Made by a program: the position numbers and the translations under genes. The notes under the pieces were generated by a model. The model saw only the letters and a program-made list of their open reading frames with translations. It ran no database searches and was not told the DNA's origin. A DNA stretch of 64,000 nt from Streptomyces sp. HUAS MG91. GTDB lineage: Bacteria > Actinomycetota > Actinomycetes > Streptomycetales > Streptomycetaceae. Where the stretch lies: assembly GCF_040529335.1 (NCBI RefSeq), contig NZ_CP159534.1:1736001-1800000 (forward strand). Reading direction: 5' to 3'. Shown piece after piece: positions 1,221 to 44,750 of the stretch. Each line of letters opens with the position of its first letter. Position 1 is the stretch's first letter.

Positions 1221-1464
1221 GGCTCGTCGTCGGGTGCGGGTGCGTGGGGGCTGGTCGCGCAGTTCCCCGCGCCCCTGATGGGTCCTCGTTCGGCTGCCGG
1301 CCGGTGGCCGCTTCTCGCGCAGTTCCCCGCGCCCCTGGGTCGCACGTCGGCTGCCGGCCGGTGGCCGCTTCTCGCGCAGTTCCCCGCGCCCCTGGGTCGC
1401 ACGTCGGCTGCCGGCCGGTGGCCGCTTCTCGCGCAGTTCCCCGCGCCCCTGAGGCATGCGCTTC

Positions 1465-1489
1465 GCGCAGCCTCCCCCTGAGGCTGCGC
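1465..1489. repeat. Hairpin module of island A
   Basis: The perfect 10-bp stem GCGCAGCCTC / GAGGCTGCGC closes a CCCCT loop. It is identical in island C (43294-43318), and in island B (11457-11479) an A-T pair is replaced by C-G, so pairing is kept. Confidence 0.85.
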
Positions 1490-1503
1490 TCCGCGCGCCT
1501 CTG

Positions 1504-1603
1504 AGGAGGGGCAGGTGGTGCGCCTCTGAGGAAGGGCGGGTGGCGCGCCTCTGGGGAAGGGCGGGTGATGCGCCTCTGGGGAGGGGCGGGTGGCGTGCCT
1601 CTG
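1504..1603. repeat. Four 25-base tandem units, island A
   Basis: Four consecutive 25-base units lie at 1504, 1529, 1554 and 1579, each built around AAGGGCGGGTGGCGCGCCTC with a few substitutions. The same unit is repeated four times at 43333-43432. Confidence 0.88.
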
Positions 1604-1683
1604 ATGAGATGGCGCACGCAGTGCGCATCTCAGGGGCGCGGGGAACTGCGCGACCAGCCACGACGAGAGCCGCGGCCGGGCGG

Positions 1684-2385
1684 TCAGGGGGCGAGGATGT
1701 CCAGTTCCTGCAAGGCGCCCTCGGCGATTTCCCGGGTCAGGGACTCGGCGCGGGCCGCGTCGCCCTCGCGCACGGCGTCCGCGACCCGTACGTGGAGGGT
1801 GACCGCCGCCGGGTCCGGGTCCTCGAACATGACCTGGTGATGGGTGCGGCCCGAGAGGACCTCGGCGACCAGATCGCCGAGATGGGCGAACATCTCGTTG
1901 CCGGAGGCGTTCAGCACCGTGCGGTGGAACTCGATGTCGTGGATCAGGTACTTCTCCAGCTGCTGCCCGCGTGACGTGGCCACCATGCCCAGCGCGCACT
2001 CGGTGAGCCGCGCGCACTGCTCGGCCGTGGCGTGCCGGGCGGCGAGCCCCGCCGCCACCGGCTCCACCGCCGAGCGCAGCACCGTGAGCGAGCGCAGCTG
2101 GCGGGGCCGGTCGGTGCCGGCCAGGCGCCAGCGGATGACCCGCGGGTCGTAGACGTTCCACTCCGGCGCCGGCAGCACCGTCACGCCCACCCGGCGCCGC
2201 GAGGTCACCAGGTTCATCGACTCCAGGACCCGTACCGCCTCGCGCATCACCGAACGCGACACCTCGAACCGCTGCGCCAGTTCGTCCGTGCGCAACACGC
2301 TCCCCGCCGGGTACTCCCCCGAGGTGATGGCGGGACCGAGGCTGTCCAGTACACGGGCGTGCAGCCCACGGTCCTGAGTGGTCAT
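1684..2385 (-). CDS. gntR: GntR/FadR-family repressor of gluconate genes
   Basis: This 233-residue regulator has an N-terminal winged helix-turn-helix (about 8-75; LRTDELAQRFEVSRSVMREA) and an all-alpha FadR-type FCD ligand domain (about 90-225). Asp, His and Arg residues in HDIEFHRTVLNASGN fit the metal/ligand pocket of that subfamily. It is transcribed divergently from gntK and gntP, the usual arrangement for a gluconate-responsive repressor; that ligand is inferred from the neighbours. Two GTCnGAC motifs lie in the shared promoter. The start is ATG 2385, with a TAGTCT -10-like box six bases upstream and no Shine-Dalgarno, so the mRNA may be leaderless. The 3' end faces repeat island A. Confidence 0.87.
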   Translation of the reverse strand: MTTQDRGLHARVLDSLGPAITSGEYPAGSVLRTDELAQRFEVSRSVMREAVRVLESMNLVTSRRRVGVTVLPAPEWNVYDPRVIRWRLAGTDRPRQLRSLTVLRSAVEPVAAGLAARHATAEQCARLTECALGMVATSRGQQLEKYLIHDIEFHRTVLNASGNEMFAHLGDLVAEVLSGRTHHQVMFEDPDPAAVTLHVRVADAVREGDAARAESLTREIAEGALQELDILAP

Positions 2386-2391
2386 GGGAAA

Positions 2392-2397
2392 AGACTA
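2392..2397 (-). promoter_or_regulatory. -10 element of gntR, likely leaderless
   Basis: TAGTCT on the minus strand is followed by six bases (TTTCCC) and then the gntR ATG. No Shine-Dalgarno is present, which fits a leaderless transcript. Confidence 0.5.
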
Positions 2398-2412
2398 GCC
2401 CGGCCCTCAAAG

Positions 2413-2451
2413 GTCTGACTTATAGATCACACCCTCTTGAATTTGTCCGAC
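2413..2451. promoter_or_regulatory. Paired GntR operator candidates
   Basis: Two copies of GTCnGAC, each self-palindromic, lie at 2413-2419 (GTCTGAC) and 2445-2451 (GTCCGAC). Both are followed by YTATW, and their centres are 32 bases apart, about three helical turns. They sit between the divergent gntR and gntK starts and are the best candidates for the repressor's sites. Confidence 0.55.
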
Positions 2452-2515
2452 CTATTGAGTTTGAGTGTCGTACAACAGCGATGTCGATGAAGACAGACAG
2501 CGAGGCAGCACAGCG

Positions 2516-3040
2516 ATGAGCACCCCCCACGTCGTCGTGGTCATGGGCGTGGCAGGTACCGGCAAGACGACGATCGGTCCCCTGCTCGCCGAGCGGCTCG
2601 GCGTTCCCTACGCCGAGGGCGACGACTTCCACCCCGAGGCCAACATCGCCAAGATGTCGGCCGGCACCCCCCTGACCGACGACGACCGCTGGCCCTGGCT
2701 GGACGCCATCGGCGAGTGGGCGCACGGCCGGGCGGGGCTCGGCGGGGTGGCCTCCAGCTCCGCGCTGAAGCGGGCCTACCGCGACCGGCTGCGGGCGGCG
2801 GCCCCCGGGGTGGTCTTCGTCCACCTCACCGGCGACCGCGCGCTCATCGAGGACCGGATGTCGCACCGGCAGGGTCACTTCATGCCGACCGCGCTGCTCG
2901 ACTCGCAGTTCGCCACGCTCCAGCCGCTCGGGCCGGACGAGGCGGGCGTCGAGGTCGATGTCGCGGGCTCCCCGGAGGAGATCGCCGACCGGGCCGTGCT
3001 GGCCCTGGCCGCGCTCGACTCCGCCCCCACGGACCAGTAG
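2516..3040 (+). CDS. gntK: Gluconokinase
   Basis: This 174-residue cytosolic kinase phosphorylates D-gluconate to 6-phosphogluconate, feeding the pentose phosphate route. The P-loop GVAGTGKTT lies near residues 11-19. The substrate/lid signatures GDDFHPEANIAKMSAGTPLTD and the following DDRWPWL are typical of the GntK/IdnK family, as is SSALKRAYRDRLR. Length matches the family (about 165-180). I choose ATG 2516, preceded by a weak AGCGAGG; the open frame continues upstream to a GTG at 2465, but those residues are not conserved in character. It is followed 61 bases later by gntP in the same direction, so the two are probably one transcript controlled by GntR. Confidence 0.93.
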   Translation: MSTPHVVVVMGVAGTGKTTIGPLLAERLGVPYAEGDDFHPEANIAKMSAGTPLTDDDRWPWLDAIGEWAHGRAGLGGVASSSALKRAYRDRLRAAAPGVVFVHLTGDRALIEDRMSHRQGHFMPTALLDSQFATLQPLGPDEAGVEVDVAGSPEEIADRAVLALAALDSAPTDQ

Positions 3041-3101
3041 GCCCGCTCTCCCTCTCCCCCCGTAAGTCCCCCTCCCCCCATTCACGTACAAGGGATCAGC
3101 C

Positions 3102-4508
3102 GTGACCAGTCTCAGCGTCGAGATGCTGGCAGCGGACGCCGTCGAGCCGATCACCTCCGCTGGCCATGCCCAGCTCGGGATCGCCGTGCTCGCCGGCATC
3201 GCCGTCATCGTCCTGCTCATCACGAAGTTCAAGGTCCACGCCTTCCTGGCGCTGACCATCGGCTCGCTCGCGCTCGGCGCGTTCGCCGGGGCCCCGCTCG
3301 ACAAGGTGATCACCAGCTTCAGCGGCGGACTCGGCTCCACCGTGGCCGGTGTCGGTGTGCTGATCGCGCTCGGCGCGATCCTCGGCAAGCTGCTCGCCGA
3401 CTCAGGCGGCGCCGACCAGATCGTCGACACCATCCTGGCCAAGGCCGGGAAGTCGGGCGGGAAGGCCATGCCGTGGGCGATGGTCCTGATCGCCGCCGTG
3501 ATCGGCCTGCCGCTCTTCTTCGAGGTCGGCATCGTGCTGCTGATCCCGGTCGTGCTGATGGTCGCCAAGCGCGGCAACTACTCGCTGATGCGCATCGGCA
3601 TCCCGGCCCTCGCCGGCCTGTCCGTCATGCACGGTCTGATCCCGCCGCACCCCGGCCCGCTCGTCGCGATCGACGCGGTCCACGCCAATCTCGGCATCAC
3701 TCTCGCGCTCGGCATCGTCGTCGCGATCCCCACGGTGATCATCGCCGGTCCGGTGTTCTCGAAGTACGCCGCCAAGTGGGTCGACGTCTCCGCTCCCGAC
3801 AAGATGATCCCGGCCCGCGCCTCCGAGCAGCTGGAGAAGCGCCCCAGCTTCGGCGCCTCCGTCGTCACCATCCTGCTGCCGGTCGTGATGATGCTGGCCA
3901 AGGCCCTGGTCGACATCGTCGTGGACAACCCCGACGCCACCGTCCAGCGCACCTTCGACGTGATCGGCAACCCGTTGACGGCCCTGCTCGTCGCCGTCGT
4001 CGTGGCCATGTTCACCCTGGGCCGGGCCGCCGGCTTCACCAAGGGCAAGCTGCAGGAGACCACCGAGAAGTCCCTCGCCCCGATCGCCGGTGTGCTGCTC
4101 ATCGTCGGCGCGGGCGGCGGCTTCAAGCAGACCCTGATCGACTCCGGTGTCGGCCAGATGGTCCTGGACATCTCCAAGGACTGGTCGATCCCGACCCTGC
4201 TGCTCGCCTGGCTGATCGCCGTCGTCATCCGTCTCGCCACCGGCTCGGCCACCGTCGCGACGGTCTCCGCCGCCGGACTCGTCGCGCCTCTCGCGGCCGG
4301 CATGACCGACACGCACACGGCGCTGCTCGTCCTCGCGATCGGCGCGGGTTCGCTCTTCTTCAGCCATGTCAACGACGCCGGGTTCTGGCTGGTCAAGGAG
4401 TACTTCGGGCTCAGCGTCGGGCAGACCGTGAAGACCTGGTCGGTCATGGAGACGATCATCTCCGTGGTCGCCGGTGGCCTGGTGCTGTTGTTGTCGCTGG
4501 TTCTGTAA
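3102..4508 (+). CDS. gntP: Gluconate:H+ symporter, GntP family
   Basis: This 468-residue integral membrane protein has about 12-14 hydrophobic segments and imports gluconate or related aldonates. Family signatures include HGLIPPHPGPL (about 172-182), LPLFFEVGIVLLIPV, the internal GAGGGFKQTLIDSGVG loop and SHVNDAGFWLVKEYFGL near the C-terminus. The start is GTG 3102 with AAGGGA about eight bases upstream. Together with gntK it forms an uptake-plus-phosphorylation operon. A strong bidirectional terminator follows. The exact substrate (gluconate versus another sugar acid) rests on the gntK neighbour. Confidence 0.93.
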   Translation: MTSLSVEMLAADAVEPITSAGHAQLGIAVLAGIAVIVLLITKFKVHAFLALTIGSLALGAFAGAPLDKVITSFSGGLGSTVAGVGVLIALGAILGKLLADSGGADQIVDTILAKAGKSGGKAMPWAMVLIAAVIGLPLFFEVGIVLLIPVVLMVAKRGNYSLMRIGIPALAGLSVMHGLIPPHPGPLVAIDAVHANLGITLALGIVVAIPTVIIAGPVFSKYAAKWVDVSAPDKMIPARASEQLEKRPSFGASVVTILLPVVMMLAKALVDIVVDNPDATVQRTFDVIGNPLTALLVAVVVAMFTLGRAAGFTKGKLQETTEKSLAPIAGVLLIVGAGGGFKQTLIDSGVGQMVLDISKDWSIPTLLLAWLIAVVIRLATGSATVATVSAAGLVAPLAAGMTDTHTALLVLAIGAGSLFFSHVNDAGFWLVKEYFGLSVGQTVKTWSVMETIISVVAGGLVLLLSLVL

Positions 4509-4531
4509 CCACCACAGGTGACGTACGGAAC

Positions 4532-4563
4532 AGGGCGGTCCGGCTGTGTCCGGGCCGCCCTTT
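4532..4563. terminator. Bidirectional terminator between gntP and cytochrome b gene
   Basis: The inverted repeat AGGGCGGTCCGG / CCGGGCCGCCCT encloses a short loop and is followed by TTT on the plus strand. It lies between two convergent genes. Confidence 0.75.
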
Positions 4564-4579
4564 CCGCTGCCCGCACAGG

Positions 4580-5897: not shown

Positions 5898-6025
5898 GTC
5901 GTGATTCGAGCACGTTCGGTGCGGCCGGGACCAGGGTTCGGGCCGGGCCGTCAGGGTTCCGTCACCTTTCGCGGGGGCCGGGCGCGGGGGCGGGTGGGCG
6001 TTCGTCGGCGGGTGCGGGGTGCGTC

Positions 6026-6055
6026 GTGGCTGGTCGCGCCGTTCCCCGCGCCCCT
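6026..6055. repeat. Single repeat-core copy (19/20)
   Basis: A core copy with one substitution (GCGCCGTTCCCC...) lies at 6036-6055, preceded by the TGGCTGGTC lead seen elsewhere and followed by GAGGCAGGCG as in island B. It lies between the molybdoenzyme gene and the permease 3' end. Confidence 0.75.
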
Positions 6056-6090
6056 GAGGCAGGCGCTTCGCGTCGCCTCCCCTTCGCGTT

Positions 6091-7629
6091 CTACGAGGTG
6101 CTCTTCTTCTCCAGCTGGAAGGCCTCGTTGCCCAGGCCGATCCGGGCGTGGGCCGCCGGGTTGCGGCGGCGGAGGACCAGGCTGTGGGCGACGCCGGCCA
6201 GGGCGGCCAGCAGGATCAGGCCGGGGAGCAGCCAGTTCAGGGCCGAGTCGGGGCCGGAGCCGACCAGGACGTCGAAGTCCTTGACCGTGTAGCCCGCGAT
6301 GACCAGCAGGGCGATGCCCGACACCGCGGAGGCGGCGAGTCGCCAGGCCTGGGCGGCAGCCGCCCCGCGCCGGACGAAGAAGACGATGACCGCGACCGAC
6401 GCGACGGCCATGAGCAGGATGACGCCGAGGGCGCCCACGTTGCCGCCCCAGGTGAACAGGCGCAGGACGGGCGCCGTCGGGTCCCCCGCGGCGCCGGAGT
6501 CGGTGACGGCGAAGGCCAGGACGACGACCGCCGCGATGACCGTCTGGAGCACCGAACCGGCGCCGGGCGCCCCGCTCGCGCTGTGGGTGCGGCCGAAGAC
6601 GGCGGGCAGCAGCCCCTCGCGGCCCATGGCGAACGCGTACCGCGCGACGACGTTGTGGAAGCTGAGCATCGCCGCGAACATGCCGGTGATGAACAGGACG
6701 TGCACGACGTCCGTGAAGGTGGCGCCGAGCCGGTCCTCGGTGAGGCCGAAGAGCAGGCCCGCCGACTGCTTCCGGGCCTGGCCGACGATCCCCGAGGGGC
6801 CGGTGGCGACCGTGAGCGCCCAGGAGCTGATCGCGAAGAACACGGCGACGCCGCCCACCGCGAGGTACATCACGCGCGGGACGAGGATGTGCGGGCGGCT
6901 GGTCTCCTCCGCGTACACCGGCGCCTGCTCGAAGCCCGCGAACGCCGCGATGCAGAAGCACAGGGCGGTGCCGACGCCGACCCCGGAGAGCGTGTCGGGG
7001 TTGAAGGCGTGCAGGGAGGCGCCCTCCTTGCCGGGGTCGCCGAGCGCCGCGATGTCGAAGATCACCACGAGGGCGACCTCGATGAGGAGCAGCACTCCGA
7101 GCACCCGCGCGTTGATGTCGATCTTCAGCAGGCCGCAGACGGCGACCACGGCGACGGCCACCAGCGCCGGGATCCACCAGGCGATCTGTACATCCAGGTG
7201 TTCCTGGGCGAGGGCGGACACCTCGAAGCCGAAGATCCCGAAGATGCCGACCTGGAAGGAGCTGTAGGCGAGGAGGGCGACGAGCGCCGCCGCGGATCCG
7301 GCGGTCGGGCCGAGGCCGCGGGTGATGTACGCGTAGAACGCGCCGGCGTTGTGCACGTGCCGGCTCATCTCCGCGTAGCCGACGCTGAACAGCGCGAGGA
7401 CGACGCCGAGCACGAGGAAGAGCAGCGGCTGCCCGACCGCGCCGACCACGGCGAACGTGGTCGGCATGACGCCGGCCACCACCATGAGCGGCGCCGTCGC
7501 GGCGAGCACGGAGAGCAGCAGGCCCGCCGTGCCGAGGCGGCCGGCCCGCAGCGCGCTCTCCTCTCCCCGGTAGGTCGCTATGCCGGGCTCCGGCGCGGTG
7601 TCGGTGGTTCTCGAACTGCCCGTGGTCAT
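6091..7629 (-). CDS. APC-superfamily amino acid permease
   Basis: This 512-residue membrane protein has about 12-14 helices. APC features include LGTAGLLLSVLAATAPLMVV in TM1, the GAFYAYITRGLGP motif and FAGFEQAPVYAEETSRP near the helix 6 region. Substrate is probably an amino acid or amine, taken up by proton symport; specificity cannot be read. I choose ATG 7629 because GGAAGGAACC lies 6-8 bases upstream, although the open frame extends to 7899. The upstream gene in the same direction (7668-8651) encodes a TPR-like protein and may be cotranscribed. The stop lies 35 bases from a repeat core copy. Confidence 0.88.
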   Translation of the reverse strand: MTTGSSRTTDTAPEPGIATYRGEESALRAGRLGTAGLLLSVLAATAPLMVVAGVMPTTFAVVGAVGQPLLFLVLGVVLALFSVGYAEMSRHVHNAGAFYAYITRGLGPTAGSAAALVALLAYSSFQVGIFGIFGFEVSALAQEHLDVQIAWWIPALVAVAVVAVCGLLKIDINARVLGVLLLIEVALVVIFDIAALGDPGKEGASLHAFNPDTLSGVGVGTALCFCIAAFAGFEQAPVYAEETSRPHILVPRVMYLAVGGVAVFFAISSWALTVATGPSGIVGQARKQSAGLLFGLTEDRLGATFTDVVHVLFITGMFAAMLSFHNVVARYAFAMGREGLLPAVFGRTHSASGAPGAGSVLQTVIAAVVVLAFAVTDSGAAGDPTAPVLRLFTWGGNVGALGVILLMAVASVAVIVFFVRRGAAAAQAWRLAASAVSGIALLVIAGYTVKDFDVLVGSGPDSALNWLLPGLILLAALAGVAHSLVLRRRNPAAHARIGLGNEAFQLEKKSTS

Positions 7630-7667
7630 CGCGGGTGGGTTCCTTCCGGTCCGGTGGATGCTGGTCG

Positions 7668-8651: not shown

Positions 8652-9001
8652 CGCGACGGTTCCTCTACGGCTCTGCGGATCTCGGCAGATCTCTTCGGCT
8701 CCGCGCGACGCTGCGCGGCCAGGTCGATGATCACGGACAGCAAAGCGGTAGCGGGCACTCCACGTCAAGGGTGATCAGGTGACGGAGTTCACCAACTGAC
8801 CTATGGCATATGCGAGTTGCTGTTATTGCTCTTTCAACATGCCACGTCAGAGGGGGAGTTGAGCTGGTTACACGAGTACAGGATGGCGGCGCACGGCCGG
8901 GTGCGGGCGCGCTCTCGTGGGGCGTGGGGCGCCGCGGGGCGCTATGGTCGGCCCATACCCACCCCTGCTCGTCCAGCCCGTAGTCCGTAGAGGTGCGCAG
9001 C

Positions 9002-9892
9002 GTGTCGGTCCTCGTCCTCGTCCTCGCCGTGAGCGCGGCGTTCTGCCTGGGCACCGGTTTCGTCCTCCAGCAGAACGCGGCGGCGCACGCCCCGCTGGGG
9101 GACTTCCTCTCCCCGCGCCTGCTCCTCGATCTGGTGCGGGTGCCGCGCTGGCTCGGCGGCATAGGGCTGATGGTGTGCGGCATGGTGCTCGGTGCGATCG
9201 CGCTCGGGCAGGGCGAGCTCACCCTGGTGGAGCCGCTGCTCGCCACCAATCTGCTGTTCGCGCTGATGCTGTCGCGCCGGCAGACCAGACAGCCCCTCGG
9301 CCGGCAGGGCTGGGCGGGTCTGTTGCTGCTCGCGGGCGGGGTCACGGCGTTCATCGTGGCCGGGCAGCCGCGCGGCGGCAGCGCGGTGACGGATCCGCTG
9401 CGCCACTGGCTGATCATCGGCGTGATGGTCGGCACGGCCCTGCTGCTGGCGGCGCTCGCCAAGCGGTCGCGGCTGAGCCCGGGCCCGGCGCTGCTCGCGG
9501 TGGCCGCCGGGCTGCTGTACGGGGTCCAGGACGCGCTCACCCGGGTGTGCGGGCAGCGGTTCTCGGCCGGGGGTCTCTCGGCGGTGCTCACCGGCTGGCA
9601 GCCGTACGCGGTGATCGCCCTCGGGGTGACCGGGCTCGTCCTCGTGCAGAGCGCCTTCGAGACGGCGCCGCTGCGGATGTCGCTGCCCGCGCTGACCGCC
9701 GCGCAGCCGCTGGCCGGGATCGTGTGCGGGGTGGGGTTCCTCGGGGACCGGCTGCGCACCGACACCGGGGCGCTGGCCTGGGAGGCGGCCGGGCTGGCCG
9801 GGATCGTGGTGGGCGTGGTGCTTCTCGGGCTGCATCCCGCGATGCCGGGCACGGCCGCGCGGGGGCGGGAGCGGGCGGGAGCCGGGGTCTAG
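9002..9892 (+). CDS. DMT-superfamily (EamA-like) transporter
   Basis: This 296-residue membrane protein has about nine or ten hydrophobic helices in the two-fold DMT pattern. Signatures include FCLGTGFVLQQNAAAHAP at the start, LTLVEPLLATNLLFALMLSR, AGLLYGVQDALTRV and the C-terminal AAQPLAGIVCGVGFLGDRL. Substrates of this branch are unknown. I prefer GTG 9002, with AGAGG eight bases upstream, over the in-frame GTG at 8993. The preceding 230 bases hold an A/T-rich promoter zone, including a GCATATGC palindrome at 8806-8813 and a TATGGT box at 8944-8949, but no confident motif. Confidence 0.82.
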   Translation: MSVLVLVLAVSAAFCLGTGFVLQQNAAAHAPLGDFLSPRLLLDLVRVPRWLGGIGLMVCGMVLGAIALGQGELTLVEPLLATNLLFALMLSRRQTRQPLGRQGWAGLLLLAGGVTAFIVAGQPRGGSAVTDPLRHWLIIGVMVGTALLLAALAKRSRLSPGPALLAVAAGLLYGVQDALTRVCGQRFSAGGLSAVLTGWQPYAVIALGVTGLVLVQSAFETAPLRMSLPALTAAQPLAGIVCGVGFLGDRLRTDTGALAWEAAGLAGIVVGVVLLGLHPAMPGTAARGRERAGAGV

Positions 9893-9927
9893 GCAGGGCG
9901 GGGTGCGTGGTCGGGTGCCGGGTGCGT

Positions 9928-9957
9928 CGTGGCTGGTCGCGCGGTTCCCTGCGCCCG
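9928..9957. repeat. Degenerate repeat-core copy
   Basis: GCGCGGTTCCCTGCGCCCGG at 9939-9958 matches the core at 16 of 20 bases and keeps the GGCTGGTC lead. It lies just upstream of the Nudix promoter and may overlap its -35 region. Confidence 0.6.
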
Positions 9958-9962
9958 GCGCG

Positions 9963-10902: not shown

Positions 10903-11223
10903 GTGGCCGGGACGGCCGGGCGTGATCCCGGGTTGCAGCCGGCCCGGACCCGGCTGGCGTGGCGGCGCACCACGCTGTCGTGCACCGTGGCGGCCGTGCT
11001 CGCCGTCAAGACCGTGCTGCACGGGGAGGCCGGGGCGGTCGAGTGGACGGCTGCCGCGCTGGTGCTTGTGGTGTGGCTGGGGTTTCTGGCCGTGGCGCAT
11101 CGCCGGATCACCGGGCTGGCGCTGCACGAGGTGGCTCCGCCGGTGATGTCGGTGCGGGGGGCTGTGACGGCGACGTTGTGCACGGTGGCGCTGGCCGTCT
11201 TCGCGGTGGCCCTGGTGGTGTGA
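10903..11223 (+). CDS. DUF202-family small membrane protein
   Basis: This 106-residue protein has three helices and a shortened DUF202 motif (LQPARTRLAWRRTTLSCTVAAVLAV). The polar first half of the motif carries Arg residues facing the cytoplasm as in DUF202. It starts at GTG 10903, three bases after the previous stop, and is surely co-translated with it. Function is unknown. The stop lies 28 bases before the first core copy of repeat island B. Confidence 0.8.
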   Translation: MAGTAGRDPGLQPARTRLAWRRTTLSCTVAAVLAVKTVLHGEAGAVEWTAAALVLVVWLGFLAVAHRRITGLALHEVAPPVMSVRGAVTATLCTVALAVFAVALVV

Positions 11224-11227
11224 CCCC

Positions 11228-11606
11228 CCGCGGCCCGGTGGCGGCCGACCGCGCAGTTCCCCGCGCCCCTGGGTTGTCGTCCACCTGCGGCCCGGCGGCC
11301 GCTTCTCGCGCAGTTCCCCGCGCCCCTAGGTTGTTCGTCGACTGACGGCCGGTGGCCGCTTCTCGCGCAGTTCCCCGCGCCCCTGGGTTGTCGTCCACCT
11401 GCGGCCCGGCGGCCGCTTCTCGCGCAGTTCCCCGCGCCCCTGAGGCAGGCGCTTCGCGCCGCCTCTCCTTGAGGCGGCGATCCGCGCGCCTCTCTCCCGC
11501 TGGAGGCCAAGGTTCGCGGGGCTTCCCGTCGGAGGCGGGGGCCTGTTGATGAGATGGCGCACGCAGTGCGCATCTCAGGGGCGCGGGGAACTGCGCGAGA
11601 AGCGGC
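11228..11606. repeat. Composite repeat island B
   Basis: Four plus-strand exact cores at 11251, 11308, 11365 and 11422 are spaced exactly 57 bases apart. They are followed by a hairpin (11457-11479), a short GC-rich segment without the 25-base array, the same 26-base hairpin as in islands A and C (11551-11576), and an inverted exact core (11577-11596). Together with the promoter region to 11767 this fills a 544-base gene-free gap. The 37-base spacers alternate between two related versions (GGGTTGTCGTCCACCTGCGG... and AGGTTGTTCGTCGACTGACGG-like), consistent with duplication of a larger unit. Confidence 0.9.
11457..11479. repeat. Hairpin module of island B with compensatory change
   Basis: The stem CGCCGCCTC / GAGGCGGCG closes a TCCTT loop. 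Relative to islands A and C the A-T pair in GCAGCC/GGCTGC has become C-G, so both strands changed together and pairing is preserved. Confidence 0.8.
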
Positions 11607-11710
11607 CACCGGGCCGCGGACGGAGAACGGAAACGGGGCAGAGCCCTTTCGTGCGGCCCGGGGCGTGGGCCACGGTTAGAACGATCACGTTTCCGTCTGG
11701 CACTGGACGA

Positions 11711-12804: not shown

Positions 12805-14019
<1,215 letters not shown>

Positions 14020-14045: not shown

Positions 14046-14077
14046 GTGGCTGGTCGCGCAGTTCCCCGCGCCCCTTG
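14046..14077. repeat. Single exact repeat-core copy
   Basis: The exact core is at 14056-14075, preceded by GTGGCTGGTC. It lies 37 bases after the acyl-CoA dehydrogenase stop in the sense direction of that gene. The rest of the 14020-14321 gap holds a doubtful small ORF and the lysR promoter. Confidence 0.85.
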
Positions 14078-28561: not shown

Positions 28562-29068
28562 GCGAATCACCTCGGTCTCGATGGCCAGTTTGAACTCGGC
28601 CAGCACGAGCGGCACCGCGAGGTGCGTGTCACCGCGGCGGGCCGCGACCTTCAGGCCGACCGGGGTGCCCGGGTGCACGAACATCTGCCAGGTGTAGGAG
28701 CGGTACTGGCCGCCGCCGGTGGCCGCGATGTCGGTGGTGGCGGTCGAGTCGTAGCCGGTGGACAGGTTCAGCGGGTCGCGCACGAAACGGGCGCGGTACT
28801 CGGTGGCCCGGTCGCTCGCCGCCCAGAAGACGAGCGCGGACAGGGTCCCCCAGCCGTCGTGGCTCGGCCAGATCAGGCCGGAGCGGGCGTCCGGGTACTT
28901 CGAGGAGCCGCCGCCGGCGGACGGGCCGTGCATGTTCCAGGGGTCGTACGACTCCTCGGCCGTCGCGTACGGGAAGCGCACGAGGTGGTACCCGTCGCTG
29001 TCGTACGTGATCTTCTGGGCGCCCGACCGGGCGGCCTCGAACTTCAGTGAACTGATCGCCAATGCCAT
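28556..29068 (-). CDS. Conserved hypothetical protein
   Basis: This protein of 170 residues in the frame as given has no signal peptide or membrane helix. Features such as YDSDGYHLVRFPYATAEESY, SGLIWPSHDGWGTLSALVF and YRSYTWQMFVHPGTPVG suggest a compact beta-rich domain, but I recognise no family. GGGGAG lies about ten bases upstream of ATG 29068; the longer frame to 29134 is unlikely. It is divergent from the BKACE gene and may originally have extended past its present stop (see the adjacent coding-like tail). Confidence 0.62.
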   Translation of the reverse strand: MALAISSLKFEAARSGAQKITYDSDGYHLVRFPYATAEESYDPWNMHGPSAGGGSSKYPDARSGLIWPSHDGWGTLSALVFWAASDRATEYRARFVRDPLNLSTGYDSTATTDIAATGGGQYRSYTWQMFVHPGTPVGLKVAARRGDTHLAVPLVLAEFKLAIETEVIRP

Positions 29069-29138
29069 GCGCTTCGCACTCCCCGTCGTCGTCGTGATGC
29101 GGATGCCCCTGTCGGTGGTTGCTGGCACCATCACAGGG

Positions 29139-29861
29139 ATGGAGTTCGTACAGGTGTGTCTGAACGGTGCTCGCGGTGCGGGCGACGGGGCGGTGATTCC
29201 GCTGTCCCCCGCCGCGCTGGGCGACGCCGCGGCGGCGGCCGTCGCCGCCGGTGCGTCGGATGTGCATGTTCACCCCAAGTCCCCTTGTGGGCAAGACTCG
29301 TTGTCGCCGCGGGCGGTCGCGGCCACGCTCGACGCGATCCGGTCCCGGGTGGCGGTGCCGGTCGGGGTGACGACGGGCGCGTGGGCGGAGCCGGATCCCG
29401 CGGCCCGGGTGGCGCGGATCCGTTCCTGGACGACGCTGCCGGACCACGCGTCCGTGAACTGGCACGAGGAGGGCGCCGAGGCGGTCGCCGCCGCGCTCCT
29501 CGACCGGGGTGTGGGCGTGGAGGCGGGACTGTGGTCCGGCACGGACGGCGCGGAGCGGTTCGCGGCGTCGCCGCTCGCCGGGCGGGTGCTGCGGGTGCTC
29601 GCCGAGGTGACGGACACCGACCCGGCCACCGCGCGGGCCTCGGCCGCCGCGCTGCTCGACGCGATCGGCACGGCGCACGGCAGGCCCGTGCTGCTGCACG
29701 GCGAGGAGGGCGGCACGTGGCCGGTGCTCGGGCTGGCGCGGCGCCTCGGGCTCGCGACCCGGGTCGGCCTGGAGGACACGCTGGTCCTGCCGGACGGGAG
29801 GCGGGCCGTGAGCAACGCGGAGTTGGTGGAGGCCGCCGTTCGGAGCGGCGCTCGGCCGTAG
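29139..29861 (+). CDS. BKACE-family (3-keto-5-aminohexanoate cleavage-like) enzyme
   Basis: This 240-residue protein resembles the beta-keto acid cleavage enzymes, which use Zn2+ and acetyl-CoA to cleave beta-keto acids. It has an early metal-binding ASDVHVHPKS (about 43-52), VPVGVTTGAWAEPD, SVNWHEEGAE and VLLHGEEGGTWPVLGLARRL typical of the family. It is at the short end of the family range (about 240-310 residues). The substrate is unknown and no pathway neighbours are present. Start ATG 29139 lies between the divergent promoter and conserved sequence. A repeat core lies between it and the convergent XRE-cupin gene. Confidence 0.82.
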   Translation: MEFVQVCLNGARGAGDGAVIPLSPAALGDAAAAAVAAGASDVHVHPKSPCGQDSLSPRAVAATLDAIRSRVAVPVGVTTGAWAEPDPAARVARIRSWTTLPDHASVNWHEEGAEAVAAALLDRGVGVEAGLWSGTDGAERFAASPLAGRVLRVLAEVTDTDPATARASAAALLDAIGTAHGRPVLLHGEEGGTWPVLGLARRLGLATRVGLEDTLVLPDGRRAVSNAELVEAAVRSGARP

Positions 29862-29916: not shown

Positions 29917-29946
29917 GTGGCTGGTCGCGCAGTTCCCCGCGCCCCT
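29917..29946. repeat. Single exact repeat-core copy
   Basis: The exact core at 29927-29946 has the GTGGCTGGTC lead. Its last T is the first base of the complement of the XRE-cupin stop codon (29946-29948), so that gene stops precisely at the element edge. Confidence 0.85.
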
Positions 29947-30458
29947 TACGGGGCTGTGGTTCCGACCACCAGGACCCTCGTTCCGGGCTCCAAGGGGCGC
30001 CAGCGGTGCGGGAGTTCGGCCGCGCAGTACAGGGTGTCGCCACGCTCCAGGCGGTACCGGACGCCGTCCGCCTCCACCTCGGCCGCGCCGTCGGCGACGT
30101 AGAGGAGTTCGTCGCCGCGGTGCCGGTACTCGCGGTCCCAGTCGTGGTCGCCGGTGAACTCCAGGGCGTGCAGCCGCTGCGGGCCGCGGACCAGGGGCCG
30201 GGTGCCGTCGGCGGTCGCGGCGCCGTCGGCGGCCCGTACGACGTCGACCGGCCGGGGCTCCTGCGCCGCCGCGAGGATCTCGACGGCCGTGGTGTCGAGC
30301 GCGTCGGCGATCCGCTGGAGCGAGCTCATGCTGGGCCGCGACCGCCCGTTCTCGACCTGGCTGAGGAACGGGACGGAGACGCCGGCCCGCCGGGCCACCT
30401 CGGCGAGGGTCAGCTCCAGGGCGCGGCGTCTGCGCCGGACACCGGGTCCCACGTTCAT
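29946..30458 (-). CDS. XRE-family regulator with cupin sensor domain
   Basis: This 170-residue protein has an HTH-XRE domain at about 5-60 (LTLAEVARRAGVSVPFLSQV, GRSRPSMSSLQRIADAL) and a C-terminal cupin at about 100-165 (HRGDELLYVADGAAEVEADG, RYRLERGDTLYCAAELPHRW). Such regulators sense small metabolites and usually repress a neighbouring operon. It is divergent from the arylsulfotransferase/permease operon, and the 106-base gap holds a paired GTTAAC palindrome, so that operon is the likely target. ATG 30458 is preferred; GGAAGGG lies 12 bases upstream, and an in-frame GTG at 30479 is possible. Confidence 0.88.
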   Translation of the reverse strand: MNVGPGVRRRRRALELTLAEVARRAGVSVPFLSQVENGRSRPSMSSLQRIADALDTTAVEILAAAQEPRPVDVVRAADGAATADGTRPLVRGPQRLHALEFTGDHDWDREYRHRGDELLYVADGAAEVEADGVRYRLERGDTLYCAAELPHRWRPLEPGTRVLVVGTTAP

Positions 30459-30510
30459 GAACTTGTCACACCCTTCCACCGCTCACCTTGCTTCCGGCAC
30501 CCTACCGTCG

Positions 30511-38716: not shown

Positions 38717-38756
38717 GGACGACTCTCCCCAGGGACGGACCGCAGGCCTCTTCTTT

Positions 38757-38776
38757 AAATTAGCACTGCTAGTTTT
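38757..38776. promoter_or_regulatory. TetR operator candidate, acyl-CoA dehydrogenase/tetR promoter
   Basis: AAATTAGCACTGCTAGTTTT is centred on 38765-38767 between the divergent starts. It matches 43097-43116 at 16 of 20 bases. It is strikingly A/T-rich for this genome. Confidence 0.72.
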
Positions 38777-38789
38777 AAGCGGACAGCCC

Positions 38790-38795
38790 TACTAT
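38790..38795 (+). promoter_or_regulatory. -10 element of tetR, likely leaderless
   Basis: TACTAT is followed by seven bases (GTGCGCC) and ATG 38803. The operator at 38757-38776 would cover its -35 region. Confidence 0.55.
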
Positions 38796-38802
38796 GTGCG
38801 CC

Positions 38803-39453
38803 ATGGCCCGACCGCGCAAGCCCCTCCTCAGCCGAGACCGCATCGTCGACGCGGCCCGCGCCCTCGTCGACGCCGAGGGGCTCGCCGCCGTCTCCACGCG
38901 GCGGCTCGCGGCCGAGCTCGGAGTGAGCGGGCCGTCCCTCTACAACCACTTCCGCACCAAGGACCAGATCCTGGAGGCGGTCGCCGACTCGGTCAGCGCG
39001 CAGGTCGATCTGTCGATGTTCGACGCGGCCGACGAGCGGGACTGGCGCACGTCGCTGCACGACTGGGCCGTCTCGTACCGGGCGGCGCTGCGCGAGCACC
39101 CGAACATCGTGCCCGTGCTCGCCCAGGGGCCCGGCCGGCGCCCGGCGGGACTGCGGCTCGCCGACGCCGTCTTCGGGGCGATGGTGGACGCGGGGTGGCC
39201 GCCCGCGCAGGCCACCTCCATCGGCGCGCTCATGCGGTACTTCGTGATGGGGTCCGCGCTCGGGTCGTTCGCCGGCGGGTTCGTCGACGACGAGACCGCC
39301 TACGATCCCGCCGACTATCCGCATCTCGGGCAGGCCCATCTCCTCGCCGACCGGCAGGAGCTGATCGACGACCGCGCCTTCGAGACCGGGCTCACCGCGC
39401 TGCTCGACGGGCTTTCGGTGCAGTACGCGCAGGTGGGCGCGGCGGCGCGCTGA
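38803..39453 (+). CDS. TetR-family regulator
   Basis: This 216-residue protein has a TetR HTH at about 10-55 (LLSRDRIVDAARALVDAEGL, STRRLAAELGVSGPSLYNHF) and a C-terminal domain of the tetracycline-repressor type (VPVLAQGPGRRPAGLRLADA; AQATSIGALMRYFVMGSALG). A shared palindrome predicts control of itself, the divergent acyl-CoA dehydrogenase and the ADH/ALDH operon 4 kb away. ATG 38803 is preferred over ATG 38794 because of the TACTAT-N7-ATG arrangement. A degenerate repeat core follows its stop. Confidence 0.88.
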   Translation: MARPRKPLLSRDRIVDAARALVDAEGLAAVSTRRLAAELGVSGPSLYNHFRTKDQILEAVADSVSAQVDLSMFDAADERDWRTSLHDWAVSYRAALREHPNIVPVLAQGPGRRPAGLRLADAVFGAMVDAGWPPAQATSIGALMRYFVMGSALGSFAGGFVDDETAYDPADYPHLGQAHLLADRQELIDDRAFETGLTALLDGLSVQYAQVGAAAR

Positions 39454-39484
39454 CGGCTCGTGTGCCGGGTGCGGGTGCGTCGCG

Positions 39485-39511
39485 GCCGGCCCCGCAGTGC
39501 CCCGCGCCCCT
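39485..39511. repeat. Single repeat-core copy (18/20)
   Basis: A core variant at 39492-39511 differs at two positions and is followed by GAGGCATGCG as in islands A and C. It lies 38 bases after the TetR stop in sense orientation. Confidence 0.7.
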
Positions 39512-39598
39512 GAGGCATGCGCCTCCCCCGCTCCTAACAACTACCTGTACAGTCCATCCGCCGGGTTCGGAAACATCCTCGTAACGCGGGAGCGGCGG

Positions 39599-40543: not shown

Positions 40544-40560
40544 CGCCTCGGCAACCGGCC

Positions 40561-41643
40561 CTAGAAGACCACCAGTGCCCGGCCGCCCTTGCCCGCGACC
40601 ATGTTGTCGAACGCGGCCGGGATGCCGTCCAGGGCGATGTGCTCCGTCACCAGCGCGCTCAGGTCCAGGCGGCCCGCGCGGATGTGGTCCGCGAGGACCG
40701 GCAGGTCGTCGGCCGGGTTGGAGTTGCCGTAGACGCAGCCGGACAGGGTGCGGCCCCAGTGGAAGATCTCCAGGGCGTTGAAGGTGACCTGCTGGTCCTT
40801 GCCGCCGATGCCGACGACCGTGGTGCGGCCGCCGCGCCGGGTGGACTCCCAGGCGGTACGGATCGTGACCGCGCGGCCGACGCACTCCACGGCCACGTCG
40901 ACGCCCTGCTTGCCGGTCAGTCCCCGGATCTCGCGGGCCGTGTTCTCGGAGGCGAGCACGTAGTCCGTGGCGCCCGCCTGCCGGGCCAGCTCCTCCTTCT
41001 CCGGCGAGACGTCCACCGCGACGATCTTCGAGGCGCCCGCGATGCGCGCCGCCTGGATCGTGGCGAGGCCGACGCCGCCGACGCCGTACACGGCCACCGT
41101 CTCGCCCGCGCGTACGCGCGCCGAGTGGTGGATCGCGCCGTAGCCGGTGAGGACGGCGCAGCCGAGCAGGGCCGCGTCCGTGAGCGGGACGCCGTCCGGT
41201 ACCGGAAGGACGGTGTTGGCGGCGACGACCGTCTCCTCGGCGAACGCGGCGACGTTCAGGCCGGGGTGGAGGTCGGAACCGTCGGACGACTTCTTCGCGT
41301 AGACGTTCCCCGCTCCGGCCAGCGCGTTCGCGCACAGCCAGACCTCGCCCAGCGAGCAGGCGTGGCAATTGCCGCACGAGGGCGCCCAGTTGAGGACGAC
41401 GCCGTCGCCGGGCGCGACATGCGTGACGCCCTCGCCGACGGAGACGACCGTGCCGGCGCCCTCGTGGCCGAGGACGGCCGGGAGCGGCACCCGCATGGTG
41501 CCGTCGGTCAGGGACAGGTCGGAGTGGCAGACCCCGGCGGCGGCGAGCTCGATGCGGACCTGCCCGGGGCCGGGCTCGGGCAGGTCGATGTCGGTGATCT
41601 CCAGCGGGGAACCGACGGCGGTGCAGACAGCGGCGCGGACCAT
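40561..41643 (-). CDS. Zinc-dependent alcohol dehydrogenase
   Basis: This 360-residue medium-chain dehydrogenase has a GroES-like N-domain with catalytic-zinc residues Cys38 (AGVCHSD) and His60 (GHEGAG), the four-Cys structural zinc lobe (SCGNCHACSLGEVWLC) and the NAD-binding GVGGVGL. It resembles class III/mycothiol-independent broad alcohol dehydrogenases. It lies 17 bases after the ALDH gene, forming an alcohol-to-acid oxidation operon likely controlled by the TetR at 38803. It converges on the urea transporter gene with a 17-base gap. Confidence 0.92.
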   Translation of the reverse strand: MVRAAVCTAVGSPLEITDIDLPEPGPGQVRIELAAAGVCHSDLSLTDGTMRVPLPAVLGHEGAGTVVSVGEGVTHVAPGDGVVLNWAPSCGNCHACSLGEVWLCANALAGAGNVYAKKSSDGSDLHPGLNVAAFAEETVVAANTVLPVPDGVPLTDAALLGCAVLTGYGAIHHSARVRAGETVAVYGVGGVGLATIQAARIAGASKIVAVDVSPEKEELARQAGATDYVLASENTAREIRGLTGKQGVDVAVECVGRAVTIRTAWESTRRGGRTTVVGIGGKDQQVTFNALEIFHWGRTLSGCVYGNSNPADDLPVLADHIRAGRLDLSALVTEHIALDGIPAAFDNMVAGKGGRALVVF

Positions 41644-41660
41644 GGTGATCGGTGACTCCC

Positions 41661-43049
41661 TTAGAACTGGAGGGACTTGGTCTGGAGGTACTCGGACAGG
41701 CCGTGCGCGCCGAGTTCCCGGCCGACGCCCGACTGCTTGTAACCGCCGAACGGGGCCAGCGGGTTGAACCGACCGCCGTTGATGTCGACCTGGCCGGTGT
41801 CCATGCGGCGCGCGAAGGCGACGGCCTCGGCCTCGTCACCGGCCCAGACGGCACCCGCGAGGCCGTACACGGTGCCGTTGGCGATCCGCAGGGCGTCGTC
41901 CTCGTCCTCGTACCGGATGAGGGAGACGACCGGGCCGAAGATCTCCTCCTGCGCGATGGTCATCTCGGGGGTGACGTCCGCGAAGACGGTCGGGGCGACG
42001 TAGTAGCCCTTCTCGTGCGGGGTCCCGGTGCCGCCGACGACGACGCGGGCGCCCTGTTCGACGCCCTTCTCGATGTAGCCGCGCACCCGGGCCTGCTGCT
42101 TGGCGTTGACGAGCGGGCCGATGCGGTCGCCGTACTTGGCGGCGGCCGTCGCGGCGAGTTCGACCGCCTCGTCGTACTGGTCCGTGTGGACGAGCATGCG
42201 GGTCCAGGCGCTGCACGTCTGGCCGGAGTTGCCCATGACGTTGGCGATGCCGACGTTGACGGCCTTCGCGAGGTCGGCGCTGGGCAGGATGACGTTCGCC
42301 GACTTGCCGCCGAGCTCCAGGGCCACGCGCTTGATCGCCGCGCCCGCCGTCGCGCCGATCTGCCGGCCGACCGCGGTCGACCCGGTGAAGGAGACGAGGT
42401 CCACGTCCGGGTGCTCGGCGAGGGCCTGTCCCGCGACCGCGCCGACGCCCGTGACCAGGTTGAAGACGCCCGCCGGGATGCCCGCCTCGTGGACCGCCTC
42501 CGCGAACAGCTGGGCGGTGAGCGGGGTGTCCTCGGCCGGCTTCAGGACGACCGTGCAGCCCGCGGCGAGGGCCGGGCCGACCTTCGCGACGATCTGGTGC
42601 AGCGGGTAGTTCCAGGGCGTGATCGCGCCGACGACACCGACCGGCTCGGAGTAGACCGTGGAGTTGCCGACCTTCTCCTCGAAGGGGTGGGAGGCGGCCA
42701 GTTCGGCGTACGAGCCCGAGACCAGGATCGGTACGCCCGCGTGCACGGTCTGCGAGAACGCGAGCGGCGCGCCGAGCTCCGCGGTGACCGTCTCGGCGAC
42801 CTCGTCCTTGCGGGCGACGAGGACGTCGCGCAGGGCGGCGATGCGCGCCGCGCGGTCGGTGGGGGGTGTGGCGGCCCAGGCCGGGAAGGCGGTACGGGCG
42901 GCGTGTACGGCTGCGTCGATGTCTTCGGCGGTGCCCGCGGGGACGTGGCCGATGACCGTTTCGTCGGCCGGGTTGACGACCGTGATCGTCTCCTCGGTCA
43001 GCGCCCGGCGCCATTCGCCGTCGATGTACATCCCGTCGTGGGCCTTCAT
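41661..43049 (-). CDS. NAD(P)-dependent aldehyde dehydrogenase
   Basis: This 462-residue ALDH superfamily enzyme oxidises an aldehyde to the acid. The family hallmarks are intact: TPWNYPLHQIVAKVGPALAA, the general-base Glu in VALELGGKSAN, the nucleophile Cys in GNSGQTCSAWTRMLV and the C-terminal PFGGYKQSGVGRELG. GGAGGAG lies five to six bases before ATG 43049. As first gene of the operon it has the palindrome 43097-43116 about 50 bases upstream. The substrate is probably produced by the ADH encoded next. Confidence 0.94.
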   Translation of the reverse strand: MKAHDGMYIDGEWRRALTEETITVVNPADETVIGHVPAGTAEDIDAAVHAARTAFPAWAATPPTDRAARIAALRDVLVARKDEVAETVTAELGAPLAFSQTVHAGVPILVSGSYAELAASHPFEEKVGNSTVYSEPVGVVGAITPWNYPLHQIVAKVGPALAAGCTVVLKPAEDTPLTAQLFAEAVHEAGIPAGVFNLVTGVGAVAGQALAEHPDVDLVSFTGSTAVGRQIGATAGAAIKRVALELGGKSANVILPSADLAKAVNVGIANVMGNSGQTCSAWTRMLVHTDQYDEAVELAATAAAKYGDRIGPLVNAKQQARVRGYIEKGVEQGARVVVGGTGTPHEKGYYVAPTVFADVTPEMTIAQEEIFGPVVSLIRYEDEDDALRIANGTVYGLAGAVWAGDEAEAVAFARRMDTGQVDINGGRFNPLAPFGGYKQSGVGRELGAHGLSEYLQTKSLQF

Positions 43050-43096
43050 GGCTCTCCTCCCGAGTACCGCGTGATGTTGCTGTCGTCCTGCGCTCC

Positions 43097-43116
43097 AAAC
43101 TAGCGGTGATAGTTTT
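43097..43116. promoter_or_regulatory. TetR operator candidate, ALDH/ADH operon
   Basis: AAACTAGCGGTGATAGTTTT lies 47 bases upstream of the ALDH start and matches the 38757-38776 site at 16 of 20 positions; the two outer arms AAACTA / TAGTTT are complementary. Confidence 0.72.
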
Positions 43117-43293
43117 CTGGCGCCAGAGACGACTGTCACGCCGCCGACGATTCCTCCCCGGGGTTACCGGTCGGCTGACGGCCCGGCGCGGGCTGGTCGC
43201 GCAGTTCCCCGCGCCCCTTTTCGGGTTGTCGGTCGGCTGACGGCCGGTGGCCTCTTCTCGCGCAGTTCCCCGCGCCCCTGAGGCATGCGCTGC

Positions 43294-43318
43294 GCGCAGC
43301 CTCCCCCTGAGGCTGCGC
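43294..43318. repeat. Hairpin module of island C
   Basis: This is the perfect 10-bp stem GCGCAGCCTC / GAGGCTGCGC with a CCCCT loop, identical to the module at 1465-1489, 42 kb away. Confidence 0.85.
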
Positions 43319-43332
43319 TCCGCGCGCCTCTG

Positions 43333-43432
43333 ATCAAGGACACGTGGCGCGCCTCTGAGGAAGGGCGGGTGGCGCGCCTCCGATGAAAGGCGGGTGGCGC
43401 GCCTCTGATGAAGGGCGGGTGGCGCGCCTCTG
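43333..43432. repeat. Four 25-base tandem units, island C
   Basis: Units at 43333, 43358, 43383 and 43408, each ending GGCGCGCCTCTG or a one-base variant, correspond to the array at 1504-1603 but with different substitutions. Confidence 0.88.
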
Positions 43433-43517
43433 AGGAGATGGCGCACGCAGTGCGCATCTCAGGGGCGCGGGGAACTGCGCGACCAGCCACGACGAGAGCC
43501 GCGCGCAGGAACTGGTT

Positions 43518-44750
43518 TCAGGGGCGCGGGGAACTGCGCGAGGAGCGGCCACCGGCCCGCGGGCCACCACGGACGGGACCCGGCAGCCGGGACGGAGTCC
43601 CCCGGCGCAGGCCCAGGCCCGCGGCGACGAGGAGCAGGCCGCCCAGCATCACGAACGGCGCCGCCGTACCGGCCACCCCCGCGACGACCCCCGCCGAGGC
43701 CGGCGCCGCCACCTGGCCCAGCCGGTTGCCGGTCAGGCGGAGGGCCAGGGCCGTGGAGCGGGCGTCCGGCGGGGCGGCCTGGACGACCGTGGTCATGGAG
43801 AGGGGCTGGCCGACACCCAGGCAGAAACCCAGCAGCACCAGGATCACCGCCAGCGCCCACACCGGCACGGGAAGCGCGATCGCCGCGCACAGCAGCGCCG
43901 CCAGCAGACACGTCGAGGTGATCAGCAGCGCGCGGCCCAGCCATGCGAGGAGCGGCGTCATGACCAGGCGGCAGGCGATGGTGGCACCCGCGCGCAGGCT
44001 GAGCAGCACACCGACCACGGCGGGCGCGATCCCCCGGTGCTCACCGACCACCGGCAGGTACGCCGTGAGGATGTCGGTGGCCGACAGCACGGCCAGGCTG
44101 ATGAAGATGCCGCCGGGCACGCCCCGGGTGCGCAGGATGCGGTGCACGGGAACCCGGGACGCGCTCACCCCCGTACGCGGACCGGAAACCGTACGGCGGG
44201 CCTCGATGCGCCACAGCGAGGTGAGGGCGAACGCGCAGACGCCCGCCGAGATCAGCAGGGCCAGCGCGCTGGTGCCGCCCATGTCGGCGCCGTCGATCAC
44301 CGCGCCCGCCGCGATCGGCCCGACGAGCTGGCCGAGCGAGGCGCCGATGGTGAAGTGGCCGAAGTTGCGGTCCTGTTCGTCGGGGGCCGACTGCCGGGCC
44401 ACGATCGACTGGGCGCCGATGACGAAGCAGAGGTGGCCGAGGCCCATCACGCCGCTCCACGCGGCCATCCAGGCAAGGGAGTCCGCGGTGCCGCTCAGCG
44501 CGCAGCCGCCCGCGATGAGGACCACGCCGGCGGGCAGCAGCGGGGCGCAGCGGCCGTGGTCCGTGCGCCGCCCCAGCGGCACCGCGGCGAACAGCGGCAG
44601 CAGTGCGTAGACGCCCGCGATGACGCCGACGGCGCGTTCGTCGGCGCCGAGGGCGAGCGCCCGGTAGGAGACGGCGGGCCGCGCCATCGACACCGCCCCC
44701 TGCGCGAAGCTGAAGGCGATGACGAGGCGCAGCAGCCAGGTGCGGCTCAT
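43518..44750 (-). CDS. MFS transporter with repeat-encoded C-terminus
   Basis: This 410-residue protein has 12 membrane helices of drug/sugar-exporter type (FAAVPLGRRTDHGRCAPLLP in loop 2-3; NFGHFTIGASLGQLVGPIAA; TALALRLTGNRLGQVAAPAS). Substrate is unknown. Its final residues, RSSRSSPRP, and the TGA stop are encoded by the inverted repeat core at 43520-43539, so the element supplies the end of the gene. It lies seven bases after CitMHS on the same strand and is probably cotranscribed with it. Confidence 0.82.
   Translation of the reverse strand: MSRTWLLRLVIAFSFAQGAVSMARPAVSYRALALGADERAVGVIAGVYALLPLFAAVPLGRRTDHGRCAPLLPAGVVLIAGGCALSGTADSLAWMAAWSGVMGLGHLCFVIGAQSIVARQSAPDEQDRNFGHFTIGASLGQLVGPIAAGAVIDGADMGGTSALALLISAGVCAFALTSLWRIEARRTVSGPRTGVSASRVPVHRILRTRGVPGGIFISLAVLSATDILTAYLPVVGEHRGIAPAVVGVLLSLRAGATIACRLVMTPLLAWLGRALLITSTCLLAALLCAAIALPVPVWALAVILVLLGFCLGVGQPLSMTTVVQAAPPDARSTALALRLTGNRLGQVAAPASAGVVAGVAGTAAPFVMLGGLLLVAAGLGLRRGTPSRLPGPVRGGPRAGGRSSRSSPRP

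Follow-up and report, generated by a model that had tools for sequence, protein, structure and literature searches.

The 64,000-nt stretch of the Streptomyces sp. HUAS MG91 chromosome analysed here (the window; contig NZ_CP159534.1, positions 1,736,001 to 1,800,000) carries copies of a 20-base word, GCGCAGTTCCCCGCGCCCCT, which belongs to a real, family-wide repeat of the Streptomycetaceae that is similar to repetitive extragenic palindromic (REP) sequences. A search of the whole genome (8,616,192 bases in two contigs) yielded 469 exact copies, of which 243 lie on the forward and 226 on the reverse strand; the reversed word, which served as a control, had no copy. The repeat is probably a REP-like family, related in organisation to the bacterial interspersed mosaic elements (BIMEs), that is independent of a REP-associated tyrosine transposase (RAYT) and acts as GC-rich hairpins at the 3' ends of genes. 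A first-pass annotation of the window had recognised a Streptomyces-type extragenic repeat with no assigned function. This interpretation is partly supported: it agrees with what is within reach in the literature and Rfam, and requires extension to genera other than Streptomyces.

Copies and structure of the repeat unit

All 16 exact copies previously listed for the window were recovered, each at the position and on the strand given for it. With up to three mismatches allowed, 18 matches were obtained, the additional two being the copies at 6036 (one mismatch) and 39492 (two mismatches); the chance expectation from 100 shuffles was a mean of 0.07 and a largest value of 1. Both had already been put forward as variants, and a third proposed variant at 9939 (16 of 20 bases) is visible in the sequence. 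The three islands described earlier are real, and their composite character can be defined more closely as that of inverted composites holding separate hairpin cassettes. The statement that no full copy follows 43540 is correct as far as the end of the window and fails beyond it, the next exact copies (C1:1803611 and C1:1803678) lying approximately 3.6 kb further on.

The genome was sampled as 119 stretches of 20 kb over the 8.45-Mb chromosome in addition to the window, 2.44 Mb in all, in which a simple codon-usage caller predicted 2167 genes (86% coding). The 20-mer occurred in this sample 140, 27, 5 and 6 times at 0, 1, 2 and 3 mismatches, respectively. At four mismatches there were 49 matches; column-shuffled motifs gave 23 on average, and the motif in reversed order gave 61. 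The 20-mer is a sharp family with few intermediates.

Although first regarded as the core of the repeat, the 20-mer makes up the conserved 3' portion of a unit of 57-60 bp, its near-invariant bases being preceded by a body of some 36-40 nt (near ...TGCGGGCCGGTGGGGGCTGGTC) in which conservation is loose. The 3' half of the 20-mer (CGCGCCCC) constitutes one arm of a GC-rich hairpin. In many single copies a short GGGGCGC located slightly further downstream provides the second arm, and in pairs and islands this arm is the whole 20-mer in inverted orientation, past one or more hairpin cassettes. A short partner beginning with GGGGC was found within a few bases of 31 of 171 copies from the source genome and 74 of 190 copies from foreign loci, against 4.6% in shuffles of the source genome copies.

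Non-consensus letters amounted to 1.5% in the 20-mer and 32% in the preceding 20 nt for 178 copies of the source genome, and to 0.8% and 32% for 189 foreign copies, the percentages for the 20-mer being biased towards low variation because copies were picked by the 20-mer itself (up to three mismatches). Inverted partner arms lying within 150 nt of exact copies are not pre-selected and provide an unbiased check. For 139 exact copies of the source genome, 67 partners were perfect, three had one mismatch and three had 2-5 mismatches, where the null was 13 with 2-5 mismatches; the remainder fell within the null range. For 167 foreign copies, 28 partners had 0-1 mismatch and four had 2-5 (null 24). 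Half-decayed partner arms are few; the 20-mer is therefore either kept or lost and seldom half decayed, and its preservation is near all-or-none.

The copies of the sample were arranged in 99 clusters, comprising 47 single copies, 30 simple inward pairs, 12 larger inward arrays, eight tandem arrays and two outward pairs. The arms were identical in 26 of the 30 inward pairs, with spacers of 18-110 bases. Small hairpin cassettes lie between the arms, and several of these cassettes recur.

Position relative to genes and on the chromosome

Intergenic clusters of the sample (91) lay between convergent genes in 42 cases, between co-directional genes in 46 and between divergent genes in three, these intervals representing 16%, 51% and 33% of intergenic bases, respectively (convergent excess, p 3.6e-11; divergent deficit, p 4e-12). 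A further five clusters fell within called genes and three at stretch ends. Promoter regions of the source genome seldom hold copies. Clusters between co-directional genes were situated at a median of 34 nt from the upstream stop codon versus 118.5 nt from the next start codon, and 41 of 46 were nearer the stop, which bears out on the scale of the genome sample the earlier observation that most single copies lie just after stop codons. Random placement with respect to gene ends and absence from relatives had been named as the two outcomes that would speak against the repeat; placement was found to be non-random, and the repeat is present in relatives, if patchily.

Clusters were present in only 2 of 28 outer stretches (below 1.0 or above 7.5 Mb) versus 47 of 78 stretches at 1.5-7.0 Mb (p = 5e-7), and the repeat was not found in the first 160 of the 164.85 kb of the second contig (C2). 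Its near-absence from the chromosome arms and C2 looks as if the repeat marks DNA long resident in the lineage.

Distribution among relatives

Among 61 genomes searched, the exact 20-mer was present in 21 of 37 of the same genus and in none of the 24 others. A 19-base form, GCGCNGTTCCCCGCGCCCC, was detected in 177 of 295 genomes of the genus at 0-1013 copies per genome, with the highest counts in G133 (1013), G083 (817) and G152 (690), compared with 541 in the source genome (G000). Across the family it was present in 122 of 200 Streptomycetaceae genomes, representing 10 of 17 genera, and in none of 181 genomes from other families of the class. Named holders in 80 of at least 120 stretches were mostly Streptomyces, together with Kitasatospora, Streptacidiphilus and Actinacidiphila.

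Some units in other genera of the family form back-to-back pairs whose 20-mers point outward at a separation of 106-110 bp; 20 such pairs occur in 19 stretches chosen for this geometry. To judge from these sequences, the arrangement is similar to that of miniature inverted-repeat transposable elements (MITEs) and opposite to the inward pairs of the source genome. So far as the stretches compared go, the geometry of pairing varies between genera, and the word is constant. In these stretches (L315-L333, from G348, G408, G357 and G373) the outward 20-mers flank a central GC hairpin, which in G348 frequently precedes a run of T.

The exact 19-mer was found in no stretch of viral contigs. A 123-bp stretch compared with plasmid and phage records gave no match at an E value of 1e-5, a limit that is too strict for a lone 20-mer. 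When a 47-bp query was used with E values up to 10, 114 plasmid records, 21 of them from Streptomyces, showed weak and incomplete matches, of which one extended over at least 80% of the query; plasmids may carry short copies.

Turnover against the nearest relative

G083 is the nearest relative found, with long matches of 89-95% identity, and 75 kb of its genome were compared with the window. At shared sites the window and G083 carry, respectively, five copies and one (island A), five and two (island B), one and three (14056), one and an island of 11 (39492), four and six (island C) and, at the sixth site, one each. The copy at 29927 has no counterpart at the corresponding site in G083, and one copy with two mismatches is present in G083 only. 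At two relic sites of the window, G083 carries a full copy (49020-49068) and a copy with one mismatch (51159-51180), and the core there seems to have disappeared through deletion and not through point decay. Sites are mostly kept between the two genomes and the islands are rebuilt. For the surroundings of island B, copies at the site were found in G000 and G083 among the 30 best-matching genomes; 27 of the other 28 had no match with up to three mismatches in the compared stretch, and the remaining one (L276, from G133) shows a pair of near copies at a distance of about 1.3 kb.

Candidates for copying and recognition

The RAYT-type domain (Y1_Tnp, PF01797) was absent from G000, G001, G014, G032, G083, G133 and G127. 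In the two sets searched, 7 of 37 and 12 of 23 genomes do have genes with PF01797, the copy-rich G152, G180, G272 and G252 among them. G133 and G083, the two copy-richest genomes searched, are both without the domain, and a RAYT as a requirement for the repeat was rejected on the grounds that PF01797 is missing from several copy-rich genomes. A cis-linked master gene was also rejected: the 405 proteins encoded beside copies contained no large recurrent family, the largest groups having six members. Loss of SbcD, the palindrome-cutting nuclease, was rejected as a permissive cause, SbcD being found in all 30 genomes tried (15 copy-rich and 15 copy-free; 29 over the cut-off and G103, 78% complete, below it). 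That 20 bases are near-identical across the family beside variable flanks suggests, on comparison of the copies, that something reads the word.

Hairpins at 3' ends and alternative explanations

The joint reading, to which we assign even confidence, is of a REP/BIME-like repeat family of the Streptomycetaceae whose units of body and 20-mer act as 3'-end hairpins. At the 3' end of an mRNA, such a hairpin would serve as a U-poor terminator or as a block to 3' decay, and between convergent genes one hairpin would serve both. Islands would expand and contract by slippage or recombination between units, and a trans factor, which might be the termination machinery, a binding protein or a copying enzyme, would keep the 20-mer uniform. 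The placement of the copies and their hairpin partners speak for a role at 3' ends. The 10 nt following short hairpins of the source genome contain 2.77 T versus 1.60 expected; this was counted in favour of the same role and is close to the 3-4 U reported for Streptomyces terminators in the accessible part of one paper (PMC12207403).

Several observations weigh against this reading. The excess of T is slight in other species (1.81 versus 1.51), and in the source genome T is not higher after sense copies (2.73, n=22) than after others (2.89, n=9). Folding of the 110 nt past stop codons gave a mean z of -2.18 for 114 stops with the repeat versus -1.53 for 150 of the 931 without it (p = 0.10), no clear strengthening by the repeat. 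The distance from stop codon to hairpin end had a median of 110 nt, with 6 of 22 at 63-75 nt, where the portion of PMC12207403 available gives 66-76 nt for Streptomyces. The first-pass annotation had most single copies follow genes in their sense direction; as a general rule this was not upheld, single copies between co-directional genes being 13 sense and 10 antisense with no clear preference. Divergent positions are less rare at foreign loci (76 convergent, 64 co-directional and 19 divergent of 159 copies). Finally, 118 of the 295 genus genomes have no 19-mer, and any function is therefore dispensable in the genus. Termination by the repeat is an inference, and the tests of it had weak or mixed outcomes. 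A further reading, proposed tentatively and at less than even confidence, is a family-wide system with a non-RAYT factor of its own that would recognise the 20-mer as hairpin or duplex, keep up to about 1000 copies uniform, and place or preserve them at stop codons of the core chromosome as two-sided 3'-end elements.

It is also possible, if rather unlikely, that the repeat is a selfish, non-autonomous mobile element without host function, its units being copied by an enzyme through the 20-mer and gene ends being where they do least harm. In its favour are the patchy copy number, from 0 to 1013, the outward units with 106-110 bp spacing that are dispersed in a different genus, and the sites that differ between G000 and G083, and tolerance alone would also place copies by stop codons and away from promoters. 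However, tolerance would be expected to extend to the arms and the second contig, where the repeat is scarce or was not found. The RAYT-type domain was not detected in G000, G083, G133 or G127, no gene family recurs beside the copies, and the viral contigs lacked the exact 19-mer. In addition, a clean empty site with a target duplication was not seen in the 75 kb of G083, in which duplications were not systematically examined.

A still less probable explanation is that the 20-mer is a duplex DNA binding site for a protein involved in chromosome organisation, supercoiling or termination, with the hairpins arising as a by-product of inverted sites. This would account for a 20-mer far less variable than its flanks (a figure biased by selection, from which the partner-arm check is free), for the same word at unrelated sites in several genera and for its confinement to the chromosome core. 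A plain binding site would, however, need neither anchoring to stop codons nor hairpin partners, and its absence from 118 of the 295 genus genomes also argues against it. We know of no candidate protein.

A replichore-polar motif of the FtsK orienting polar sequence (KOPS) or Chi kind, steering DNA translocation or repair, can be dismissed for this genome: the run of plus-strand copies alone from 1.80 to 2.96 Mb among the first places listed is an artefact of the listing, mistakable for replichore polarity although the total strand counts are balanced, and exact copies of the even sample numbered 40 on the plus and 38 on the minus strand to the left of dnaA (4.234 Mb), and 35 and 27 to the right.

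Features of the window

Coordinates of the islands, single copies and relics are given in Table 1. The sense orientation claimed for the single copies of the window applies by gene calls to three of five (9939, 14056 and 39492); that at 6036 is antisense, and that at 29927 is sense only if the open reading frame 28758-29861, not accepted by the gene caller, is a gene. Two called minus-strand genes have stop codons that arise where they join the last base of the 20-mer. The stop codon (29946-29948) of gene 29946-30479 (-) starts with the base paired to the last T of the 20-mer, and gene 43518-44750 (-) reads through the 20-mer at 43520-43539, its TGA (43518-43520) starting with the last T of the 20-mer.

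Table 1. Repeat copies, islands and relics in the window.
Feature	Position	Strand	Description
Island A	1237..1670	both	20-mers at + 1257, 1317, 1374, 1431 in tandem; hairpin cassettes; inverted 20-mer at 1632; inverted body; flanked by the stops of genes 831-1220 (+) and 1684-2385 (-)
Single copy, 1 mismatch	6036..6055	+	Antisense; 3' side towards the stop of gene 6091-7629 (-)
Degenerate copy (16/20)	9939..9958	+	46 bases past the stop of gene 8993-9892 (+)
Island B	11240..11610	both	20-mers at + 11251, 11308, 11365, 11422 in tandem; cassettes; inverted 20-mer at 11577; after the stop of gene 10987-11223 (+)
Single exact copy	14056..14075	+	36 nt past the stop of gene 12805-14019 (+)
Single exact copy	29927..29946	+	Adjoins called gene 29946-30479 (-)
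Single copy, 2 mismatches	39492..39511	+	38 nt past the stop of gene 38794-39453 (+)
Island C	43160..43560	both	Copies at + 43199, 43260; cassettes; inverted copies at 43461, 43520
Relic	49020..49068		Two inverted bodies with 17-base pairing arms and a short remnant, CTTCTCGCGCAG, between them; full 20-mer absent
Relic	51159..51180		Half hairpin directly after a TAG stop; 20-mer absent

Relation to known repeats and significance

In common with REP sequences, the family consists of many short extragenic repeats that form hairpins and lie mainly 3' of genes, as evidenced by the 469 exact copies, their placement and their partners. The accessible part of the account of the GTAG and CGTC super-families (PMC3733652) likewise describes high-copy short hairpin repeats in mostly convergent or co-directional positions near 3' ends, occurring as singles and as head or tail dimers in genomes that are either full or empty of them, and the CGTC class is said there to be without a dedicated transposase. 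Unlike REP sequences, the present family has a longer unit with a loosely conserved body, and lacks a constant GTAG or CGTC tag in the positions around the 20-mer (170 copies of the source genome and 186 foreign copies); the 20-mer itself contains neither tetranucleotide. It was found here in one actinobacterial family only, whereas the portion of PMC3733652 available lists other phyla. The tag is lacking and a RAYT-type domain is missing from several rich genomes; the family is therefore called REP-like rather than REP.

The BIMEs of Escherichia coli are mosaic arrays of REP sequences and other motifs, with gyrase, IHF and DNA polymerase I among their binding partners. The present family has the same mosaic character, inverted and tandem units alternating with separate hairpin motifs in inward pairs, tandem arrays and recurrent cassettes; the sequence differs. 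Long hairpins are formed by two inverted copies of a short invariant motif on either side of a spacer, as in the REPINs (REP doublets forming hairpins) associated with RAYTs in the part of PMC3116915 that was accessible. In contrast to those, the spacer is variable (18-110 bases in 30 pairs) and the RAYT-type domain was not found in G000, G083, G133 or G127. The U-poor intrinsic terminators of Streptomyces, as described in the available portions of three reports (PMC12207403, PMC8269248 and PMC8780764), are likewise stable GC-rich hairpins that follow coding sequences and have few U downstream of the stem; here, one 20-mer recurs behind unrelated genes, and those portions describe no shared repeated word.

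Rfam gave no match in the window at the gathering score. No paper in the literature searched prints the 19-mer, any of four 15-mers taken from it or either of two 15-mers from its A-to-G variant, and the papers found on REP, BIME, REPIN, MITE and other repeats in connection with Streptomyces do not describe the repeat in titles or abstract starts, supplements and most subscription papers being outside the search. The accessible parts of the Term-seq papers on S. avermitilis and S. clavuligerus (PMC8780764, PMC8269248), of the TERMITe paper (PMC12207403) and of an S. coelicolor RNA-seq paper (PMC4681348) make no mention of it. Subscription papers or supplements may contain a description.

Discussions of REP-type repeats usually involve RAYTs. 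The present repeat is an equivalent from the main producers of antibiotics, one that keeps nearly a single exact 20-mer over the family, reaches around 1000 copies and has no RAYT-type domain in the two richest genomes searched. Islands rebuilt between species that share most sites offer naturally occurring cases in which copies were gained, lost or multiplied at conserved positions. Such cases can be used to ask how repeats spread and whether, in GC-rich bacteria, they terminate transcripts or protect them; U-tract terminators are scarce in these bacteria according to the part of PMC12207403 available. Should the islands affect the genes on either side, they would also lend themselves to use as two-sided 3'-end parts.

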